Part shown: in pieces, positions 1,983-16,683 of the stretch
Position numbering within the stretch: the stretch's first letter is position 1
Layout of the letters: every line of letters starts with the position of its first letter
Source of the DNA: Candidatus Cloacimonadota bacterium
GTDB lineage: Bacteria; Cloacimonadota; Cloacimonadia; Cloacimonadales; Cloacimonadaceae
DNA length: 16,709 nucleotides
Reading direction: 5' to 3'
Assembly (NCBI GenBank): GCA_028681035.1
Contig: JAQUJJ010000080.1
Coordinates: forward strand, 1 to 16,709
Translations under genes and position numbers: made by a program
Notes under the pieces: generated by a model
What the model was told of the DNA's origin: nothing
The model's database searches: none
What the model saw: the letters and a program-made list of their open reading frames with translations, nothing else

Positions 1983-2006
1983 TTGGTTTCTTATACTGAT
2001 ATCGTA

Positions 2007-2100
2007 TTTTGGAGTTCATGTGGCTGCGTGTTTTGGAGTTCATGTGGCTGAAACAAATAACCACTTGTTACTATTTATACTAGCCACATGGATTTCAAAG
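2007..2100. repeat. RAYT-type hairpin element, unit 1 (5' arm duplicated)
   Basis: The left arm TTTTGGAGTTCATGTGGCTG occurs twice, at 2007-2026 and 2031-2050. The right arm AGCCACATGGATTTCAAAG is at 2082-2100. From the second left arm to the end the unit is 70 bp, the same size as units 2-5. The arms are imperfect inverted repeats separated by an AT-rich loop. Confidence 0.75.
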
Positions 2101-2118
2101 CCGGGATTGTTATCTAGT

Positions 2119-2186
2119 CTTGGAGTTCAAAGAGCCATCTTTATCTTTATATTTACCAATAACATACAGGCTCTTTGGACTTCAAG
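2119..2186. repeat. RAYT-type hairpin element, unit 2
   Basis: The arms are CTTGGAGTTCAAAGAGCC (2119-2136) and GGCTCTTTGGACTTCAAG (2169-2186). On the plus strand all 18 positions pair if two G-T wobbles are allowed; on the minus strand the same two positions are A-C mismatches. The AT-rich loop resembles the loop of unit 4 (TCTTTATC, TACCAATA). Confidence 0.85.
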
Positions 2187-2213
2187 ATACAAGCGGCAGT
2201 GTCGCAGGTGACC

Positions 2214-2283
2214 GCTTGAAGTCCGAGCCGGATCAGAATTAAAGCTAAGCTCAAAGATAGTACTTCCGGCTCGAACTCCAAAC
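2214..2283. repeat. RAYT-type hairpin element, unit 3 (inverted orientation)
   Basis: The arms are GCTTGAAGTCCGAGCCGGA (2214-2232) and TCCGGCTCGAACTCCAAAC (2265-2283). The GAAGTCC arm comes first, so the unit is inverted relative to units 1, 2 and 4. It ends 5 bp before the transposase stop codon. Confidence 0.8.
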
Positions 2284-2288
2284 TAACA

Positions 2289-2855
2289 TCAATCCAGCAT
2301 ATAGCTCTTGATCTGTTTTTCTGATGCTATCACATCCATCATTTCACTGTAGCTGGATTCATCATCGTAGTAGCTGCGAATAATCTCGAAATCGCAGAGC
2401 TGAGCGTCCCGTAATCCTACCCATTCCAGATAATTAGACCATTCCCATTGTTCAGGTGAGCTTACTAATTCAGCAGTTACGGGATTCTGATGAATATATG
2501 CAGGCAACCGCAAAAGATAAGCATCCTTATCCACATGCTTGTGTTGGGTTTTCCCTGCAAAAATGCTACCCTTACCTCCATACTTCCTATTGTAATATTT
2601 AGAATAGCTAAACCATATCTTGTTCATGATCATATAAATAGGGCATTCTCCATTCTGATGCATGAAAAAGTGATAGTGGTTCGGCATCAGGCAGAACGCA
2701 ACCATAGAGAAATCTGGGCTATCCATATATCTATTCATCAGGCTTAGGCATTTTTGGTAATCTTCGGCATTTTTAAACAGTAACAAGCTTTGGGCTGCAC
2801 GATTGTAAATATGGTAATAGTTAGCTGGAATAAAGTCCGTAGATTTGATTCTCAT
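2289..2855 (-). CDS. REP-associated tyrosine transposase (RAYT, Y1_Tnp / IS200-like)
   Basis: The 188-residue protein has all core motifs of the Y1_Tnp HUH family: YYHIYNRAAQ near the start, CLMPNHYHFFM with the HUH pair His60-Tyr61-His62, the SYSKYYNRKYGGKGSIFAGK block (83-102) that should carry the catalytic tyrosine, and the PAYIHQNPVTAELV motif (119-131) with WSNYLEW after it. Family members nick and join single-stranded DNA at hairpins, and RAYTs are linked to REP palindromes. The frame opens at a TTG (2879), but AAGGA lies 6 nt before the ATG at 2853-2855, which I take as the start. Units 3 and 4 of the 68-70 bp hairpin repeats flank it within 5 and 34 bp, so these are its likely substrate. 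It looks intact. Confidence 0.9.
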   Translation of the reverse strand: MRIKSTDFIPANYYHIYNRAAQSLLLFKNAEDYQKCLSLMNRYMDSPDFSMVAFCLMPNHYHFFMHQNGECPIYMIMNKIWFSYSKYYNRKYGGKGSIFAGKTQHKHVDKDAYLLRLPAYIHQNPVTAELVSSPEQWEWSNYLEWVGLRDAQLCDFEIIRSYYDDESSYSEMMDVIASEKQIKSYMLD

Positions 2856-2888
2856 AACCATTCCTTTTTTGCTAAACAAATATTGCAG

Positions 2889-2958
2889 TTTTGGAGTTCA
2901 AAGAGCCTTCTTTATCGTACTGCTTACCAATATCTTACAGGCTCTTTGGACTTCAAAG
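2889..2958. repeat. RAYT-type hairpin element, unit 4
   Basis: The arms are TTTTGGAGTTCAAAGAGCC (2889-2907) and GGCTCTTTGGACTTCAAAG (2940-2958). On the plus strand the pairing is complete with G-T wobbles. It has the same orientation as unit 2 and lies 33 bp upstream of the transposase start. Confidence 0.85.
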
Positions 2959-3083
2959 CCGAGTTCCTATGGTAGTTAGCGAACCTACTTCAGAGAATTT
3001 CATACATGCAAATGTGTAATAACCATGACACTGTTGAACTTGACTGAAAACCTTTCTTTCGCGACCAGCAATGCAGCCAAGAA

Positions 3084-3178
3084 TCTTGAAGTCCAAAATG
3101 CCGCTAAGATATAGGTAAATACAAAGATAGCAGAGGCACTTTGAACTCCAAGACACTGAGGCACTTTGAACTCCAAGA
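3084..3178. repeat. RAYT-type hairpin element, unit 5 (inverted, outer arm duplicated)
   Basis: The left arm TCTTGAAGTCCAAAATGCC (3084-3102) pairs with GGCACTTTGAACTCCAAGA, present twice (3135-3153 and 3160-3178). From 3084 to 3153 the unit is 70 bp. The duplicated arm is the GGAGTTC-type arm, as in unit 1. The element ends 7 bp before the stop of the LVIVD gene. Confidence 0.8.
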
Positions 3179-3185
3179 CTTTACA

Positions 3186-5315
3186 TCACCAGCGAGCAAT
3201 CTTCTTTGCAAAGGATTTGCTTCCGTAGCTAATCTTGGCAAGATAGATACCAACAGGTACATCTCTGCCACTTCTGTCCTTACCATCCCAGCTTAGGGTG
3301 TTGCTGCCTGCTTGCTTATTCTCGTCGCAAAGCTCTCGCACTAATTGCCCCTTGATGTTATAAAGGCACAGCTTTACGTGTTCGCTCTTGGGCAAGGTAA
3401 ACTCTAAGCTCGTGCCAGAGTGGAAGGGATTGGGATAGCTGCTAAGCACAGGCTCTGGAGCAGGGACAAGCACAGCGTCCTCAATATCAACCCATTGCAG
3501 GCTGTGAATACCTAAACCATAGCCTTCATTTGCCATATATAGATTGTCCCCCTCAACCCACATTTCAGAAGTGCTCAGATTCCAGACAATGTTTTCAACA
3601 AGTTCAGGGGAATTCGGGTTACTGATATCATAACAACTGATTTCATTCCAATTGATATCGGAGAAGTATAGCATATTCGACTTTACGAAACAGGTTTTAA
3701 TATGGCTTGTCAGATGAGGCAGAATCCGCCCTAAATAGGTGGGATTCTGGGGATTGGAGATATCCAATATCTTAAGTCCAGCCTTACCATCAGCTAGATA
3801 GGCTATGTTTCCCACCACTGTAACTGAGCATGAGCAACCATCGCTATGGTATTCACCTACCAAAGTAGGGTTCTGAGGATTGGCGACATCTATGATCTGC
3901 AGACCTGCATAGTTATCTGCCACGTATGCTGTGTTCCCGATAACCGTGACGAATTGTGCAGGCCCAGGTGTATTGTAAGAACCTAACAGAGTAGGGTTCT
4001 GGGGATTGGTAACATTGATTATCTGCAGACCTGCATTCCAATCTGCCACATAGGCTGTGTTTCCAACCACCGATACTGAGTGGGCATATCCTGGCGTATA
4101 GCAATAACCAATAAGGATAGGGTTTTGGGGATTGGCGACATTTATTATCTGCAATCCATCGCTAAGATCTGCCACATAAGCACGATTCCCGTCCACAAAG
4201 ACAGAGAATGCAAAGCCTGCTGTATCGTAAAAGCCTAACAGAGTAGGGTTCTGGGGATCGGTTATATTGATGATCTGCAGCCCTTCTAAACAATCCGCCA
4301 CATAGGCTGTGTTCTCGACTACAAAAATTGAAATAGCTTCCCCGGGAGTATCATAGGAACCTATCAGAGGAGAGCTCTGGGGATTGGCGACATTAATGAT
4401 CTGCAGACCCGAATAACCATCTGCTACGTATGCTGTGTTACCGATCACCGTTACTGACCAAGCTTCCCCGGGAGTATCATAGGAACCTATCAGAGTAGGG
4501 TTCTGGGGATTTGTTACATCTATGATCTGCAGTCCTGCTTCATAATCTGCCACATACGCTTTATTTCCGACAACGGTCATCGAGGTAGCTTCCCCGGGAG
4601 TATCATAGGAACCTATCAGAGTAGGGTTCTGGGGATTTGTTACATCTATGATTTGCAGACCTGCATTCCAATCTGCCTCGTATGCTGTGTTCCCGATAAC
4701 CGTGACGAATTTTGCATACCCGGGCGTATCGTAGGAACCTAACAGAGTGGGGTTTTGAGGATTGGTGATATTGATGATCTGCAGCCCTGCATCACCATCT
4801 GCTACATAAGCTGTGTTCCCCACTACTGCTATTGAAGAAACATAATCAGATAAATTGTAGAAAGCCAACAGAGCTGGGTTCTGGGGACTTGTTACATCAA
4901 TGATCATCAGCCCAAAATGAACAATAACCACGTAGGCAACGTTATCGACTACAGTAACTGTAACAGCATCTCCTGGAGTAGAGTAGTAACCTAATAGAGT
5001 AGGGTTCTGTGGATCGGTTATATTGATGATCTGCAGACCAGAATAACCATCTGCCACATAGGCTGTGTTCCCGACAATGTTTATAGAGCGAGCACTTCCG
5101 GGTGTATCGTAGTAACCAAGCAGGGTAGGGTTCTGGGGATTTGCAACACTAATAATTTTCAATCCTTCATTATCATCTGCCACATAGGCTATGTTTCCGA
5201 CAAGCGTGACTGACCAAGCACTTCCGGACGTATCGTATTCTCCAAGTTTATAATACACTGCCCCTAAGGCAAGGTACATACAACAAACGCTAATAATTAA
5301 AATCATCCTTTTCAT
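3186..5315 (-). CDS. Secreted LVIVD-repeat beta-propeller protein with C-terminal sorting tail
   Basis: The 709-residue protein starts with a signal peptide (MKRMILIISVCCMYLALGA). It then has 12 regular 42-residue repeats of the form TPGxAxxVxVxGNTAYVAD..GLQIINVxNPQNPTLLGSYD (about 25-530) and a divergent 13th. These are LVIVD repeats, predicted to form beta-propeller blades. The last 88 residues (YPNPF, then VKLCLYNIKGQLV, DGKDRSGRDVPVGIYLAKI) form a FlgD-like/Por-type sorting tail of secreted FCB-group proteins, so it is probably exported and surface-attached. Its ligand is unknown. The frame is open back to 5471, but AAGGAG 8 nt before the ATG at 5313-5315 and the signal peptide fix the start. 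Neighbouring repeats are nearly identical in DNA around 4335-4660, so they expanded recently. Confidence 0.9.
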   Translation of the reverse strand: MKRMILIISVCCMYLALGAVYYKLGEYDTSGSAWSVTLVGNIAYVADDNEGLKIISVANPQNPTLLGYYDTPGSARSINIVGNTAYVADGYSGLQIINITDPQNPTLLGYYSTPGDAVTVTVVDNVAYVVIVHFGLMIIDVTSPQNPALLAFYNLSDYVSSIAVVGNTAYVADGDAGLQIINITNPQNPTLLGSYDTPGYAKFVTVIGNTAYEADWNAGLQIIDVTNPQNPTLIGSYDTPGEATSMTVVGNKAYVADYEAGLQIIDVTNPQNPTLIGSYDTPGEAWSVTVIGNTAYVADGYSGLQIINVANPQSSPLIGSYDTPGEAISIFVVENTAYVADCLEGLQIINITDPQNPTLLGFYDTAGFAFSVFVDGNRAYVADLSDGLQIINVANPQNPILIGYCYTPGYAHSVSVVGNTAYVADWNAGLQIINVTNPQNPTLLGSYNTPGPAQFVTVIGNTAYVADNYAGLQIIDVANPQNPTLVGEYHSDGCSCSVTVVGNIAYLADGKAGLKILDISNPQNPTYLGRILPHLTSHIKTCFVKSNMLYFSDINWNEISCYDISNPNSPELVENIVWNLSTSEMWVEGDNLYMANEGYGLGIHSLQWVDIEDAVLVPAPEPVLSSYPNPFHSGTSLEFTLPKSEHVKLCLYNIKGQLVRELCDENKQAGSNTLSWDGKDRSGRDVPVGIYLAKISYGSKSFAKKIARW

Positions 5316-5373
5316 GGCTTTTTCTCCTTTTTTTGGATGTGGCTTACAACAAAATGCTTCGTCAGGTTTTGGG

Positions 5374-5455
5374 GTGGCAAATTCCTCTTTGCCACAGCAT
5401 CTAGAAGATGCTTCTCTAACATCTCTGCTGCTACTGCCAATTCGGAGATTGGCAG
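5374..5455. repeat. Three tandem hairpins in the leader of the LVIVD gene
   Basis: Three inverted repeats follow each other: GTGGCAAA/TTTGCCAC (5374-5395), AGCATCT/AGATGCT with an AGA loop (5396-5412), and CTGCCAAT/ATTGGCAG (5434-5455). The first two are directly adjacent. The middle one has the same AGA loop as a hairpin in the arrays at 13635 and 15638. The block lies between the gene start (5315) and a TTGACA on the minus strand at 5551-5556, so it is probably transcribed as 5' leader; I saw no convincing -10 box. Confidence 0.7.
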
Positions 5456-5586
5456 CCACGTCAGCTTGCATTCAGCTACTACACACTATATTCCGTATTG
5501 TTACGGCTCTTTATTCAGTCGAATTTATAAGATCCATAATCCATCATATCTGTCAACATCTTTCTTGCACATATAAAAATCTTAGT

Positions 5587-5605
5587 TTTTGGAGTTCAAA
5601 GAGCC
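5587..5605. repeat. Solitary arm of the RAYT-type hairpin element
   Basis: TTTTGGAGTTCAAAGAGCC is identical to the left arm of unit 4. The loop-like sequence that follows stops after about 10 bp, where another dispersed repeat (5614-5638) begins. No right arm is seen, so the unit is truncated. Confidence 0.75.
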
Positions 5606-5613
5606 ATTTCTAT

Positions 5614-5638
5614 CTTAATGCTAACCTGGGGTTTCGCT
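5614..5638. repeat. 25 bp dispersed repeat shared with the 16490-16514 hairpin
   Basis: The reverse complement of 16490-16514 matches this stretch at 24 of 25 positions (CTTAATGCT, one mismatch, then ACCTGGGGTTTCGCT). At 16490 the same bases form one arm of a hairpin inside the TIR-bounded element. Here only that arm is present. Confidence 0.75.
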
Positions 5639-5641
5639 GTG

Positions 5642-5733
5642 CTTCCTTTGCAAGCATTGCCTTATCATTGTCCACCCATTGTCCATGTGGAGGGCATTGG
5701 GTGGGCAATGATAGGGCAATGTTTGCAAGGAAG
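5642..5733. repeat. 92 bp long hairpin element
   Basis: The two arms (5642-5684 and 5693-5733) are imperfect inverted repeats of about 42 bp around an 8 bp loop. Both begin with CTTCCTT and share CATTGCC, TATCATTG and CCACCCA in the same order. A few single-base differences and indels interrupt the stem. No coding role is apparent. It looks like a miniature inverted-repeat element. Confidence 0.75.
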
Positions 5734-5811
5734 AACTACAAAAGATAGCAACCAACAAAGGAACAAGTGCTCCTAACACCGCATACTTAAAGCTGGAATC
5801 TACCATTTTGA

Positions 5812-5878
5812 CTTACAATTACGCTGCGAAGAGTTTCAGTAATAATCCTTCGTGCTATCACACAGCGTAATTGTGAGT
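5812..5878. repeat. 67 bp inverted repeat
   Basis: The arms ACTTACAATTACGCTG (5812-5827) and CAGCGTAATTGTGAGT (5863-5878) match at 15 of 16 positions, with a 35 bp loop. Inner CGAAG and CTTCG sequences extend the pairing. Size and layout resemble the RAYT-type units, but the arm sequence differs. Confidence 0.65.
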
Positions 5879-5885
5879 TAAAAAA

Positions 5886-5985
5886 CTTTCCGGAAAGAGC
5901 AAGATTCTTTGTTTAGCTCATAAATCGGCGATACGTAGTTAAGTGCCCTTACAGCCAAAGATACAGTCGCCGATTATAGAAATCA
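5886..5985. repeat. 12 bp palindrome and 53 bp inverted repeat
   Basis: CTTTCCGGAAAG (5886-5897) is a perfect palindrome. AATCGGCGA (5933-5941) and TCGCCGATT (5977-5985) are perfect inverted repeats around a 35 bp loop. They belong to the repeat-filled gap between the LVIVD gene and the TfoX-like gene. The remaining 59 bp to 6044 show nothing recognisable. Confidence 0.55.
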
Positions 5986-6044
5986 AGCTTAAGAAATCCG
6001 TCAATTTTTGCATAGGGGGTGTTTATCACATCGATTGCACAATA

Positions 6045-6386
6045 TTAGGTAGGTAATCCCTTTTTCCTTTTCTTCGGTTTTGGCAATGGCACTTCGGGCG
6101 TAGTTACCAGAATAAGCTGCGTAAGCCACTCTGGTTCATCCCAGTTATCCTCGGAGATATAGAACCAGTTCTTAGCTCCAGGATATGGAGGAGCTTCTTC
6201 CACAGTGCCAAGAAATGCTCTTCCCGCCTCAGTGGGCTTTATGTATAGCTGGTCATCCGCCACTAAAGCTACTATCTTATCATCACAATATACGCTATAT
6301 TCGCCAAACATCTTTTTGGCATACACATTCCCCGCTGCCTCTATCCGGCTGAGGATATAATCCACTGTCTCTTGTTTTGAAGCCAT
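6045..6386 (-). CDS. TfoX N-terminal domain protein
   Basis: The 113-residue protein matches the TfoX_N family: ILSRIEAAGNVYAKKMFGEYSVYCDDKIVALVADDQLYIKP (residues 11-51), then PPYPGAKNWFYISED and a WLTQLI helix. TfoX of Haemophilus is a competence regulator, but stand-alone TfoX_N proteins of this length are widespread and their function is mostly unknown, so I assign none. The C-terminus is basic (PKPKKRKKG). AAGGAG 5 nt before the ATG gives a clear start. It lies 25 nt after the metallopeptidase-like gene on the same strand and is probably co-transcribed with it. Confidence 0.85.
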   Translation of the reverse strand: MASKQETVDYILSRIEAAGNVYAKKMFGEYSVYCDDKIVALVADDQLYIKPTEAGRAFLGTVEEAPPYPGAKNWFYISEDNWDEPEWLTQLILVTTPEVPLPKPKKRKKGLPT

Positions 6387-6411: not shown

Positions 6412-7101
6412 TTACTTCTTTCCGTTCAATTCCCGCCTTCTTTGTCGCCAATCGGGAATAAACTTGTCCATATAGGCTTTGAAAACTTCATTATGCGATG
6501 CCTCCAGCAGATGGGCTAGTTCATGCACAATCAGGTATTCCAGAAGACGGTCAGGTTTCTTGGCAAGCTCCGTGTTTATCCAGATGCGTTTTGCCTTGGT
6601 GTTACAGCTTCCCCAACGGCTTTTCATCTTTTTAATACCCCATTCATTTAGCTGCACGTTCATCACTTTTTGCCAGTAAGTAATTAGGGGATTAACTTTC
6701 TGCTCCAATCTTGCCCGATACCAATTATACATCTGCGTTTCACGCTTTGCGGCTGTAGCTCCGGCAATGGTGCGCATCTCTATCGTAGCATTACCTTTTA
6801 TGCTGATTTTATTTATAGCAGAGTTCTCTATCAAGCATAGCTGATATTCCTTACCCTCCAAGAAGTGGGTCTCGCCGTTGATGTATTTCTTTGTTGTAAA
6901 AGTAGTGGGTTTTACGGCAACAGTATGCTTTTCAAGCCAAGCTAATTTGCTTTCGACAAAATGCCTTATCTGCTGTTCACTGATGTGAAAAGGCGCAGAA
7001 ATCCTTATCTGCCCCGTACTGGCATTTATCGCTAAACGGATGCTTTTCATTTTCTTGTGAACCACGTTTATGATGTATTTATCCACAACTATCTGCTGCA
7101 T
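6412..7101 (-). CDS. YgjP-like (DUF45) zinc metallopeptidase-domain protein
   Basis: The 229-residue protein shows the YgjP/DUF45 pattern: an N-terminal beta region (KSIRLAINASTGQIRISAP), central WYRARLEQK, then KMKSRWGSCN and the metal site VHELAHLLEASH (His193, Glu194, His197, with His203 as likely third ligand). Family members resemble SprT/WLM minimal metallopeptidases. Substrates are unknown, though some are encoded beside type I restriction systems. The frame extends to a GTG at 7167, which has no ribosome binding site. The ATG at 7099-7101 starts the conserved region and has a weak GGAA, so I prefer it. The TfoX_N gene follows in the same direction. Confidence 0.85.
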   Translation of the reverse strand: MQQIVVDKYIINVVHKKMKSIRLAINASTGQIRISAPFHISEQQIRHFVESKLAWLEKHTVAVKPTTFTTKKYINGETHFLEGKEYQLCLIENSAINKISIKGNATIEMRTIAGATAAKRETQMYNWYRARLEQKVNPLITYWQKVMNVQLNEWGIKKMKSRWGSCNTKAKRIWINTELAKKPDRLLEYLIVHELAHLLEASHNEVFKAYMDKFIPDWRQRRRELNGKK

Positions 7102-13489: not shown

Positions 13490-13634
13490 AACTATTCCTT
13501 ATCTTTTATCGGCTTGTAACTGTCAAGCAAAGAGTTAAGCGTGCGCTGCCATACCCAGCTCTCAATGTGATTATTCTGAATTGGCTACAGGCTGTGAAAC
13601 TGCTATTGAAGTGCCATCACGATGAAGCTGGAAC

Positions 13635-13730
13635 TACAGGCGTCTCGCCTGTACTGGAAATGCAAGCGTCTCGCTTGCAAGTTTCGGCAGGCAAGATGCC
13701 TGCTGCTCCGGTATAGGCGGGACGCCTATA
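13635..13730. repeat. Array of four tandem hairpins, copy A
   Basis: Four near-perfect stems follow each other: TACAGGCG-TCT-CGCCTGTA (13635-13653), TGCAAGCG-TCT-CGCTTGCA (13661-13679), GCAGGCA-AGA-TGCCTGC (13687-13703) and TATAGGCG-GGA-CGCCTATA (13712-13730). Stems are 7-8 bp with three-base loops. Linkers are short and carry CTGG, TTCGG or CTCCGG. Confidence 0.85.
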
Positions 13731-13740
13731 GCTCCGGAAG

Positions 13741-13808
13741 TGTGGAGTCGATTTGGCTGCTGCTTATTTTTTGCTTATTCCATTTTACATAGCCAAATGG
13801 ACTACACA
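13741..13808. repeat. RAYT-type hairpin within direct repeat A
   Basis: The arms TGTGGAGTCGATTTGGCT (13741-13758) and AGCCAAATGGACTACACA (13791-13808) match as inverted repeats at 16 of 18 positions. The unit is 68 bp, the same length as unit 2 near the transposase, with GGAGT in one arm and TGGACT in the other. Outside this core the arm sequence differs from units 1-5. Confidence 0.65.
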
Positions 13809-14023
13809 TTAATAAAGCTCGCTACTTTCGTAGGAACAGCGTCCCTCGATCGAGCCGAGGGCAGGCTCTGCGCTACCCTAGCACACCAATACTCACCACC
13901 GAGAACACCGAAAGCACAGAGACACATACACACCTAGCTCTCGACCCTCCAACACGCCAGCACTCCAACACATATACACATAAACACTCTATACACTCAT
14001 CAAAGAACTATTAGCTCCTATAA

Positions 14024-14067
14024 TGTAAGGGGGACAAATCTGAGAATTTGGGACAGAATTGAGATTT
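14024..14067. repeat. Possible insertion-sequence end with tandem GGGACA repeats (copy A)
   Basis: After TGTAAGG, two related 18-19 bp repeats follow in tandem: GGGACAAATCTGAGAATTT (14031-14049) and GGGACAGAATTGAGATTT (14050-14067). Copy B keeps both. Tandem binding-site repeats after a TG terminus are common at IS21- and IS481-like ends. No transposase is present, so this is inference. Confidence 0.35.
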
Positions 14068-14206
14068 ATTTTTCTAAAAACACGGTTAGTTTAGTTTAAA
14101 AGCGGCATTGGAAGCATGTAACTTGATGTATGACATGTATCTACGGAGTTACTCGTTTAATTGCTTAGCATTTTACTCTTGACGTCTCCTTAAACTTTAA
14201 TAATGT

Positions 14207-14794: not shown

Positions 14795-15103
14795 ATGCTT
14801 AAAACTGCAAACCCTCGCTTCAAGCTTATTTATGAAGCGTTCAAACCGTTTATCGATGAATATGGAATTCGCAATATTGCCGTTTTTGGATCTTATGCCA
14901 ATGGCACTGAAAAGGCTGGTAGTGATATCGATATAATCGTTGAAATGTCTAAGCAGTTTGGTTTGTTTAAATACATAGGTTTGAAGCAAGATATTGAGAA
15001 GCAGCTTGGCATGGCAATAGATTTGGTAGAAAGACAATGCTTAGAACCGTTGTTGAAAGACAGCATTCTGGCAAGTGCGGTAACGATATATGAACAGAGA
15101 TAA
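14795..15103 (+). CDS. mntA: MNT-domain nucleotidyltransferase antitoxin (MntA-like)
   Basis: The 102-residue protein has the minimal nucleotidyltransferase signature GSYANGTEKAGSDIDIIVE (Gly32-Ser33, then Asp44 and Asp46), as in MntA antitoxins. In characterised pairs MntA neutralises HepT by adding AMP groups to a tyrosine next to the HEPN active site. The GSx10DxD residues are intact here. The length is typical. The gene ends 14 nt inside hepT, showing a two-gene operon. An AGGAG lies 12 nt before the ATG, which is rather far. The pair sits in an island between two 500 bp direct repeats, on the opposite strand from the housekeeping genes. Confidence 0.88.
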   Translation: MLKTANPRFKLIYEAFKPFIDEYGIRNIAVFGSYANGTEKAGSDIDIIVEMSKQFGLFKYIGLKQDIEKQLGMAIDLVERQCLEPLLKDSILASAVTIYEQR

Positions 15104-15416
15104 AACCCTTCTCCTGATTATTGTCCGTGAGATAGATATTATTATTGGCATCATAGCCAATTTGGATGAGGCTACGTTCCTGTCTTCAGAGATAGCACAA
15201 CGAGCTGCAGTGATGACCCTGATCAATATAGGCGAAAAAGTTAAGGATTTATCGGTAGATTTCAAAGCAGGGCACTCAGACATTCCATGGAAACAAATCT
15301 CCGGTATCAGAGACATGGCAGCTCATACTTATTTAAAGCTTAATTTTAGCCGAATATGGGAAACGATTACAGTAGATTTACCAGACCTGAAGATTAAAAT
15401 ATCTGCTATCATTTAA
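15090..15416 (+). CDS. hepT: HEPN-domain (DUF86) RNase toxin, HepT-like
   Basis: The 108-residue protein is a DUF86/HEPN toxin: an alpha-helical start (LLLIIVREIDIIIGIIANL), INIGEKVKDLS, and IPWKQISGIRDMAAHTYLKL with the RX4HXY catalytic motif intact (Arg74, His79, Tyr81). HepT toxins cut RNA (tRNA in the well-studied case). Tyr81 is the residue expected to be AMPylated by MntA. The start overlaps the mntA stop by 14 nt and has no clear ribosome binding site, fitting translational coupling that keeps antitoxin ahead of toxin. Full length, no disruption seen. Confidence 0.88.
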   Translation: MNRDKTLLLIIVREIDIIIGIIANLDEATFLSSEIAQRAAVMTLINIGEKVKDLSVDFKAGHSDIPWKQISGIRDMAAHTYLKLNFSRIWETITVDLPDLKIKISAII

Positions 15417-15636
15417 TCGACTTGATTGACAATTCACGACTGTCCATAGAAGGCTGGCTCAATTATTATTCCCTGTTTCTATATCGCTATCAACGCAGTG
15501 GTCGGACGATATCACCTCTAGTATGATTCATTTAGGGGTGGAACCTCAAATTATTAGCTGGCAAGAGTCTATCTATCAAACTGTTGTGAAATGGATGAAC
15601 TTGTAGGGTTGCTCTCTTCTTAACCCTAAACAGGAG
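15417..15636. other. Gap between hepT and direct repeat B, no recognised feature
   Basis: The 220 bp contain only very short frames, such as 24 codons from the ATG at 15533. I see no conserved motif, terminator or strong hairpin. It may be a leftover of degraded sequence from the island. Confidence 0.4.
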
Positions 15637-15637
15637 C

Positions 15638-15733
15638 TACAGGTGTCTCGCCTGTACTGGAAATGCAAGCGTCTCGCTTGCAAGTTTCGGCAGGCAAGAT
15701 GCCTGCTGCTCCGGTATAGGCGGGACGCCTATA
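15638..15733. repeat. Array of four tandem hairpins, copy B
   Basis: It is the same as the array at 13635-13730, apart from one change in the first stem (ACAGGTG for ACAGGCG). That change turns a C-G pair into a T-G wobble and so keeps the stem. Confidence 0.85.
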
Positions 15734-15743
15734 GCTCCGGAAG

Positions 15744-15812
15744 TGTGGAGTCGATTTGGCTGCTGCTTATTTTACGCTTATCTCAATTTTACATAGCCAA
15801 ATGGACTACACA
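15744..15812. repeat. RAYT-type hairpin within direct repeat B
   Basis: The arms at 15744-15761 and 15795-15812 are identical to those of the unit at 13741-13808. The loop differs by small changes, giving 69 bp. Confidence 0.65.
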
Positions 15813-16157
15813 TTAATAAAGCTCGCTACTTTCGTAGGAACTGCGTCCCTCGATCGAGCCGAGGGCAGTCTCTGCGCTACGCCAACCCCATCACTTCATC
15901 ACTTTATTACCTCATCACTTCTCGATTTCTCGACCTTCCAACACATATACACTCTATACACTCATCAAAGAACTATTAGCTTCTATAATGTAAGGGGGAC
16001 AAATCTGGGATTTTGGGACAGAAGTGGGGATTATTTTTCTAAAAACACGGTTAGTTTAATTTTAAAGCGGCATTGGAAGCATGTAACTTGATGTATAATA
16101 TGTATCTACGAAGTTACTTGTTTAATTGCTTAGCAATTGGCACTTGTTAAGCAATTC

Positions 16158-16427: not shown

Positions 16428-16683
16428 CGGGACGCAAGCTGTTGACAAAGTCCCGCAGGGACGAAATATATTAGCCTGGGGTGTAGCGAAGCGAAACCCC
16501 AGGTCAGCATTAAGAGAGACATAAAGCCCTTTTAGGGCGACATATAAAGCAATATTGCAATGTGTTACCAGTTATTGTGTCACCCCCATGGGGTTTGTTT
16601 GATACTCCTATTCATACCTGAGGTTCACACCTCAGGCTAAAGTATTCCACCTCTCTCGAGGTTTGTCAACAGCATGCGTCCCG
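16428..16683. mobile_element. 256 bp miniature element with 22 bp terminal inverted repeats and internal hairpins
   Basis: The ends 16428-16449 and 16662-16683 are inverted repeats matching at 21 of 22 positions (CGGGACGCAAGCTGTTGACA at the left start). Inside are seven inverted repeats: GTCCC/GGGAC (16450-16462), CCTGGGGT/ACCCCAGG (16475-16503), GCCCT/AGGGC (16526-16538), GCAATATTGC (16549-16558), CCCCATGGGG (16585-16594), CCTGAGGT/ACCTCAGG (16617-16636) and ACCTC/GAGGT (16649-16662). There is no coding frame of note. A T-run follows the right end, so the last stems could terminate transcription. No clear target-site duplication was found. Confidence 0.65.

Follow-up and report, generated by a model that had tools for sequence, protein, structure and literature searches.

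Wobble-footed hairpin repeats around a RAYT gene of a Cloacimonadota relative: a probable REPtron of a new type

How TnpA-REP enzymes recognise repetitive extragenic palindromes (REPs) of near-perfect palindromic sequence has been posed as an open question (PMC8266576). In a 16,709-nucleotide stretch of contig JAQUJJ010000080.1 (hereafter the window), five hairpin units at 2035-3149 surround the gene of a 188-aa REP-associated tyrosine transposase (RAYT, or TnpA-REP). We consider it probable that this locus represents a REPtron whose REP is of a new type, that is, a domesticated HUH-Y1 RAYT together with its cognate non-autonomous hairpin repeats. The same wobble code is found in hundreds of copies in related genomes, which suggests a new class of mobile hairpins. 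Sequence comparison places the source of the window among the relatives of Candidatus Cloacimonadota. The RAYT shares 71% identity with its counterpart in HGW-Cloacimonetes-3, and the ribosomal-protein region shares 88% with genome G001, which carries the HGW-Cloacimonetes-3 RAYT locus.

The units share one plan, in which a GGAGTTC foot, an 8-nt stem, a 32-nt loop, the complementary stem and a GGACTTC foot add up to 62 nt (7+8+32+8+7). The TT before and the AA after each unit also pair, which extends it to 66 nt, and these flanks are mostly alike in relatives. The first-pass annotation had placed all five units at the right coordinates, with units 1, 2 and 4 oriented one way and 3 and 5 the other; the length of 68-70 bp that it gave them has to be reduced to 62 nt, or 66 nt with TT...AA. 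Units 1-3 are on one side of the RAYT gene and units 4-5 on the other. Its description of the arms as GGAGTTC facing GGACTTC with two wobbles holds for units 2-5; the 3' foot of unit 1 reads GGATTTC, which introduces a third wobble. The window contains 12 copies of the motif GGASTTC, whereas 200 dinucleotide shuffles averaged 3.02 and none of them (0/200) reached 12. The features of the locus are as follows (32, loop length in nt).

2003..2050, + strand: tandem duplication of 24 bp of the 5' (GGAGTTC) arm of unit 1, at the outer left edge; copies 96% identical
2035..2096, + strand: unit 1, GGAGTTC-ATGTGGCT-32-AGCCACAT-GGATTTC
2122..2183, + strand: unit 2, GGAGTTC-AAAGAGCC-32-GGCTCTTT-GGACTTC
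2218..2279, - strand: unit 3, GGAGTTC-GAGCCGGA-32-TCCGGCTC-GGACTTC; tail-to-tail with unit 2
2289..2855, - strand: RAYT / TnpA-REP, 188 aa; HUH motif N-H60-Y-H62, putative catalytic-tyrosine motif Y120-I-H-Q-N-P
2893..2954, + strand: unit 4, GGAGTTC-AAAGAGCC-32-GGCTCTTT-GGACTTC
3088..3149, - strand: unit 5, GGAGTTC-AAAGTGCC-32-GGCATTTT-GGACTTC; tail-to-tail with unit 4, 133 nt between them
3133..3179, - strand: tandem duplication of 25 bp of the 5' arm of unit 5, at the outer right edge

The wobbles are conserved far beyond the window. We counted the forms of the foot in relatives of the window (49 genomes of one family), using the reversed pattern in the same genomes as the control. The arm consensus GGAGTTC-N40..66-GGACTTC, whose genome-wide search had been suggested earlier, gave 397 matches against 60 in the control, with 54 in G014, 40 in G043, 34 in G040 and 26 in G001; with the wobble positions freed (R/Y), matches rose to 570 and control matches to 299. 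In the 12 REP-richest genomes (G001, G014, G015, G022, G023, G026, G034, G040, G043, G048, G050 and G052; G002, where one-wobble units are in the majority, was not included in the sum), the two-wobble form accounts for 318 of 370 free matches. The 52 remaining matches are fewer than the 69 of the control, and genome by genome this remainder lies at or near the control level, G026 excepted. A scan of stretches of G001 and G014 and of the window, which fixed the other five foot positions, found both wobbles in 74 of 74 mismatch-free matches; this result is not independent, because the stretches had been chosen for holding wobble units, and the unbiased count is the family-wide one.

While the feet are constant, the stems vary and covary. 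Sixty-six distinct sequences with exact feet from the G001 and G014 stretches form 6-8 of the 8 stem pairs at a length of 60-64 nt, and their mean Watson-Crick stem pairing is 94.9%, against at most 68.0% after re-dealing of the 3' arms; for the 42 distinct stems among them the values are 92.0% and at most 64.9%. The covariation is strong, and the shuffles leave the kinship of the copies in place. For the remaining properties, 82 of the 92 units found by the foot scan of the G001 and G014 stretches and the window passed a filter (no foot mismatch, or one with at least 6 foot pairs and a loop of at most 34 nt); one unit (L190) was kept in the energy analysis (78 distinct units) and left out of the analyses of open frames, loop consensus and upstream arms (81 units, 77 distinct). 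Loops measure 30-34 nt and whole units 60-64 nt. The loop consensus is weak, and the loops are unstructured, with folding energies no lower than those of shuffles (mean z 0.24; 8/78 below -1). Folded with DNA parameters, the wobble strand is the better one in 65/78 distinct units and in 4/5 window units. None of the 81 units lies within an open frame of at least 150 codons. Of 39 pairs of neighbours at most 150 nt apart, 36 are tail-to-tail, and the gap measures 19-52 nt in all but four of these 36 (32/36); head-to-head pairs occur elsewhere, 16-17 nt apart in G026 and, in G002, 12 nt apart beside a RAYT and 27 nt apart at another place. The repeats are mostly intergenic, inverted, tail-to-tail pairs, similar to REPINs. 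Extra upstream copies of the 5' arm, as at the two outer edges of the window locus, are also present at two G001 units (4/81 units in all); the tandem copies at the outer edges may have been left behind by insertion, or by slippage, at the foot.

The enzyme is of the RAYT type, as the first-pass annotation had stated: it matches Pfam Y1_Tnp with 34.1 bits (cut-off 23), and its AlphaFold model (predicted local distance difference test score 85) has 4er8, the E. coli REPtron enzyme, as its best match among solved structures, which points to the fold of a TnpA-REP (TnpAY1 class 2). A search of PDB with the RAYT profile alone gave no match. For the alignment, the 120 best of 438 homologous proteins were considered, 20 were aligned (A1) and 18 were used (A2), leaving out P0015 and P0022. 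The C-terminal part of P0015 is identical to the window RAYT and its N-terminal part is very different; it is probably an assembly chimera. Among the 18 relatives, NHYH at 59-62 is invariant, as are Y120 and N124 of YIHQNP at 120-125, and P125 is nearly so. The window protein carries the motif by which RAYTs are defined, HUH followed by Y---NP (PMC6006769), and Y120 would be the catalytic tyrosine according to this published motif. Neither the W[QE] motif nor the residues that contact GTAG were found; in one weak alignment, E. coli W94, Q95, E100, H101 and R104 correspond to window F99, A100, H105, K106 and D109. According to the literature, these residues are unconserved in subclass 2.6 and different in 2.1 and 2.3. 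Since they vary among subclasses, their loss excludes the GTAG-reading subclasses and not the RAYT class. A further RAYT copy, at G001:C12:14850-15438 (L092, L181), was recovered as two pieces that overlap, the second of which contains a stop, and is apparently broken; it still has wobble units on its flanks.

A second RAYT lineage, represented in G001 (contig 28, 217296-217844) and once in G019, is flanked by units with feet of its own, TTGACTTA...TGAGTTAA, which also occur in G020, in G015 and once in the window:

5808..5881, + strand: second-family unit, TTGACTTA ... TGAGTTAA, with two G.T wobbles

With the wobble positions free, this family gave 43 matches in five genomes and none in the control; counted by eye, 38/43 have both wobbles, 5/43 have one (with an additional A.C mismatch in one of the five) and 0/43 are fully paired. 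Aligned at their cores, the first family reads TTG-GAGTT-CAA / TTG-GACTT-CAA and the second TTT-GACTT-AAA / TTT-GAGTT-AAA. Between them the outer pair changes from G-C to T-A and the central pair from G-C to C-G, both compensatory, and G.T and T.G are kept. In both families each of the two feet has GASTT as its core, and the two cores run in the same direction. The feet that go with a third RAYT (G015 contig 50) are ATGAGTCCT...ATGACTCCT, with G-C pairs at the wobble places and a T.C mismatch at the adjacent place. In all three families the feet are near-direct repeats that differ at the central S, which gives the folded foot a two-fold axis.

These observations suggest how a strand could be marked. 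When the locus becomes single-stranded, for instance at a replication fork, a unit would fold, with the foot and the 8-nt stem forming a duplex; any stem sequence would serve provided that its two halves pair. The folded foot would have GASTT on both sides, G opposite C in its centre and a G.T wobble on either side, a dyad-symmetric duplex; on the other strand the same positions would be A.C mismatches, so that the symmetric duplex would form only on the strand reading GGAGTTC to GGACTTC. TnpA-REP enzymes bind one single strand of the REP and cut beside it (PMC8266576). By analogy, we propose that the RAYT binds the folded unit, recognising the wobble foot in place of the GTAG of known REPs, and that it would cleave and join beside the foot and so let the units spread. 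The foot would then be the signal, and its symmetry suggests that GASTT is read by a dimer or through two symmetric contacts. In its most specific form, which we put forward tentatively and would not call likely, the folded hairpin is a recognition palindrome (GASTT/GASTT) that is absent from the duplex, exists on one strand only and is read by a RAYT dimer, the wobbles being a heritable strand mark that persists although the surrounding pairs can change in compensation. The anatomy of the units, the conserved wobbles, the stem covariation, the flanking of RAYT genes, the paired arrangement, the location outside long open frames and, in the model, the fold of the RAYT are observed; it is from these that we infer single-strand recognition, dyad reading, cleavage and mobility.

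Several findings weigh against this account. Ten REP-rich genomes show no RAYT of the clade: G014, G020, G034, G040, G048 and G052 contain no match to the window RAYT at E <= 1e-5, and the matches in G022, G026, G043 and G050 are partial and reach 41-57 bits, compared with 166-331 for members of the clade. The gene may have been missed in these genomes, as their contigs are often short and repeat-flanked genes are easily lost, but orphan repeats are possible as well; G020, with 24 second-family units and contigs of >300 kb, is also without a RAYT. The pairing of GGAGTTC with GGACTTC, for which a check of all copies had been suggested, dominates the 12 genomes and fails as a strict code in G002, where 14 of the 40 stem-forming units have two wobbles, 25 have one and 1 has none. 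Counted by eye among the 43 G002 matches, 3 of which lack a stem, 24/25 one-wobble units keep the outer G.T. The two RAYTs of G002 are distant relatives of the window RAYT (L002, 47% identity). In G026, matches other than two-wobble number 10 against 1 in the control and may have one-wobble or paired feet, and a fully paired unit, GGAGTTC...GAACTCT (L190), stands beside another Y1 gene in G001. The earlier view of these units as strand-marked RAYT repeats is borne out in part. Its wording that the hairpin is stable mainly on one strand is right in direction and too strong: the mean bias is ~1.4 kcal/mol out of about -10, and it is reversed or nil in 13/78 units. With so small a bias, the asymmetry cannot simply come down to which of the strands folds; should it have a role, it would be as a mark read by a protein. 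On the protein side, the NCBIfam equivalog REP_Tyr_transpos scores 54.7 bits, below its cut-off of 80. Finally, no clean empty site was found at the ribosomal-protein locus or at the G001 REP cluster, which leaves mobility as an inferred property. At the former, homology to G001, G012, G015 and G016 ends at 1989-1993, and window positions 1996-6100 have no homology and no clean junction in the eight loci compared (flanks of at most 1.5 kb); at the latter, synteny is only partial.

The closest rival, which has a substantial chance of being right although we would stop short of calling it probable, regards the wobbles as a by-product. Both ends of a unit would carry a GASTY cleavage or guide motif in the same orientation and on the same strand, as two cut sites, and as the ends must also pair, G.T would follow automatically. 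The near-direct-repeat feet of three families (TTGGASTTCAA, TTTGASTTAAA and, in G015, ATGASTCCT, which has T.C in place of G.T) fit this, as does the dispensability of one wobble in G002; however, two independent sites would need neither the dyad-symmetric pairing nor a complementary G/C centre, and both are retained. This rival overlaps with reading by a dyad, and sequence alone does not separate the two. We find it unlikely that the units act at the RNA level, as transcript hairpins with 3'-end or stabilising functions in which G.U is allowed and the RAYT is a bystander. All 81 units examined lie outside long open frames, tail-to-tail pairs place one good hairpin on each strand, and REPs are thought to act as RNA too (PMC3733652); but the units flank two RAYT lineages with lineage-matched feet, and RNA elements should drift towards perfect pairing, whereas in the 12 genomes taken together the non-two-wobble forms do not exceed chance (52 against 69, with G026 as the exception). 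Even less probable are short double-stranded elements with 15-bp terminal inverted repeats (TIRs), similar to miniature inverted-repeat transposable elements or TIRtrons and read as duplex: TIR-flanked Y1 genes are known (PMC3733652), and paired 15-nt arms around a spacer of near-constant length would suit them, but the inner 8 nt of the arms vary and covary, needlessly for a duplex-reading enzyme, and at the wobble positions the two arms lack complementarity. That the wobbles are a frozen accident, kept by recent common descent of the copies only, is similarly improbable: copies within a genome are related and their kinship survives the shuffles, but stems turned over (42 distinct among 66 units) while feet stayed, the REP-bearing genomes are distant (ribosomal-region identity 73% for G043, 71% for G052 and 69% for G034), and in the second family neighbouring pairs changed and wobbles did not.

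More distant RAYTs often have hairpins of other kinds. The hairpins near the gene were surveyed at 50 of 80 RAYT loci, and many of them are compact (33-35 nt), as at L003, L004, L007, L014 and other loci of Chloroflexi and Latescibacterota; some of their arms are near-palindromic (AACCT...AGGTT in L003) and so have symmetry but no wobbles. Near one Chloroflexi RAYT, at L040, there are three almost identical hairpins of 61 nt; their loops measure 33 nt and their feet are of another sequence, free of wobbles, and a long loop alone is thus not unique to the clade of the window RAYT:

5786-5846, 6835-6895 and 6970-7030 of L040: 61-nt hairpins

A scan of the 80 loci for GASTY feet with a stem recovered the clade members L001 and L002; its other finds were three places, in L014, L046 and L048, where pairing is complete or almost so. 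Matches to the wobble pattern in viral contigs had scattered lengths (54-80); they were taken as chance and not used.

Further repeats and genes lie elsewhere in the window:

3186-5471, - strand: beta-propeller protein of 761 aa with LVIVD repeats and, at its C-terminus, a sorting domain
5586..5626, + strand: half unit of the GGAGTTC type, cut short after the 5' arm and the beginning of the loop; foot at 5591-5597
13744..13805, + strand: third foot type, GGAGTCG-ATTTGGCT-32-AGCCAAAT-GGACTAC (GTAGTCC on the other strand)
14795-15416, + strand: Nucleotidyltransferase / HepT-like pair, a probable toxin-antitoxin module
15747..15809, + strand: third foot type, second copy, within the same longer repeat
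16449-16503, - strand: Rfam Acido-Lenti-1 RNA (49.4 bits, cut-off 37)

Among the units found in the window, those at 13744 and 15747 are the only ones with GTAG on one strand. Each belongs to a copy of a ~500-bp repeat (13630-14170 and 15633-16135, 93-97% identical in two pieces) that strings together small palindromes, CAGGCGTCTCGCCTG for example, and includes one such unit with a GTAG end. About 30 bases of the Acido-Lenti-1 RNA recur at 5606-5638, beside the half unit, and the repeats of the LVIVD protein dominate the self-similarity of the window.

The value of these repeats lies in a large natural series in which stems vary freely, G.T pairs are kept and two foot families go with their own enzymes. 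With stems varied and wobbles constant, strand discrimination becomes directly testable with few oligonucleotides. They also extend REPtrons to a phylum without an earlier description in the literature searched, where, with few subscription journals covered, neither repeats of this kind in the phylum nor REPs with wobble feet came to light.

Compared with the E. coli REPtron (4er8), the window system shares the Y1 HUH fold, as modelled, intergenic multi-copy hairpins, inverted pairs and conserved irregularities of the stem. It differs in lacking the 5' GTAG foot, with the GTAG-contact residues replaced; in a loop of 30-34 nt instead of 2-20 nt (PMC3733652 Table 1); and in a foot on both sides, dyad-symmetric, with G.T wobbles in place of a bulge, the conserved AA-GC bulge of the E. 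coli stem being required for activity (PMC8266576). In the REP families sorted in PMC3733652 the loop spans 2-20 nt and the tag is GTAG or CGTC, and known REPs measure 20-50 nt in total. Of the features of canonical GTAG REPs, the units thus have multiple copies, an intergenic location, frequent inverted pairs and proximity to a RAYT, and they lack the 5' GTAG foot (here GGAG...CTTC), the short loop and the short total length. TIRtrons (TIRYTs) are defined by a GGGGWSAS motif in flanking TIRs (PMC3733652). TnpAY1 subclass 2.6 of Bacteroidetes resembles the window RAYT in YIH[QN]NP, in similar length and in atypical non-GTAG repeats, which were recognised there by manual inspection (PMC6006769). 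The window protein has NHYH where subclass 2.6 has NH[LIV]H, and FA where it has WQ; the fit is limited to the Y motif and the atypical hairpins, the 2.6 repeats being compared by description alone. 'Double-foot' REPs of subclass 2.4 likewise have a conserved foot at each hairpin end, but their GT[AG]G...C[TC]AC feet are reverse complements (PMC6006769), while those of the window are GASTT in the same orientation, with wobbles. The available passages of PMC3733652 and PMC6006769 describe neither a 30-34 nt loop nor a wobble foot. As the first-pass annotation had surmised, the repeats match no REP described in these passages, and we call the system a new variety of REP/REPtron, marked by the lack of a 5' GTAG, a 30-34 nt loop and a dyad-symmetric wobble foot. 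With IS200/IS605 elements (IS608, ISDra2) it shares the HUH-Y1 enzyme and, as predicted here, hairpin recognition on a single strand and strand specificity (PMC8266576). Their Y---Q motif is absent from the window RAYT, which has Y---NP. In integron attC sites, too, the stem sequence is free while structure and strand-specific irregularities are conserved, there with extrahelical bases and a tyrosine recombinase, an unrelated enzyme; the window repeats resemble them in their free stem and conserved strand-specific irregularities and differ from them in their enzyme.
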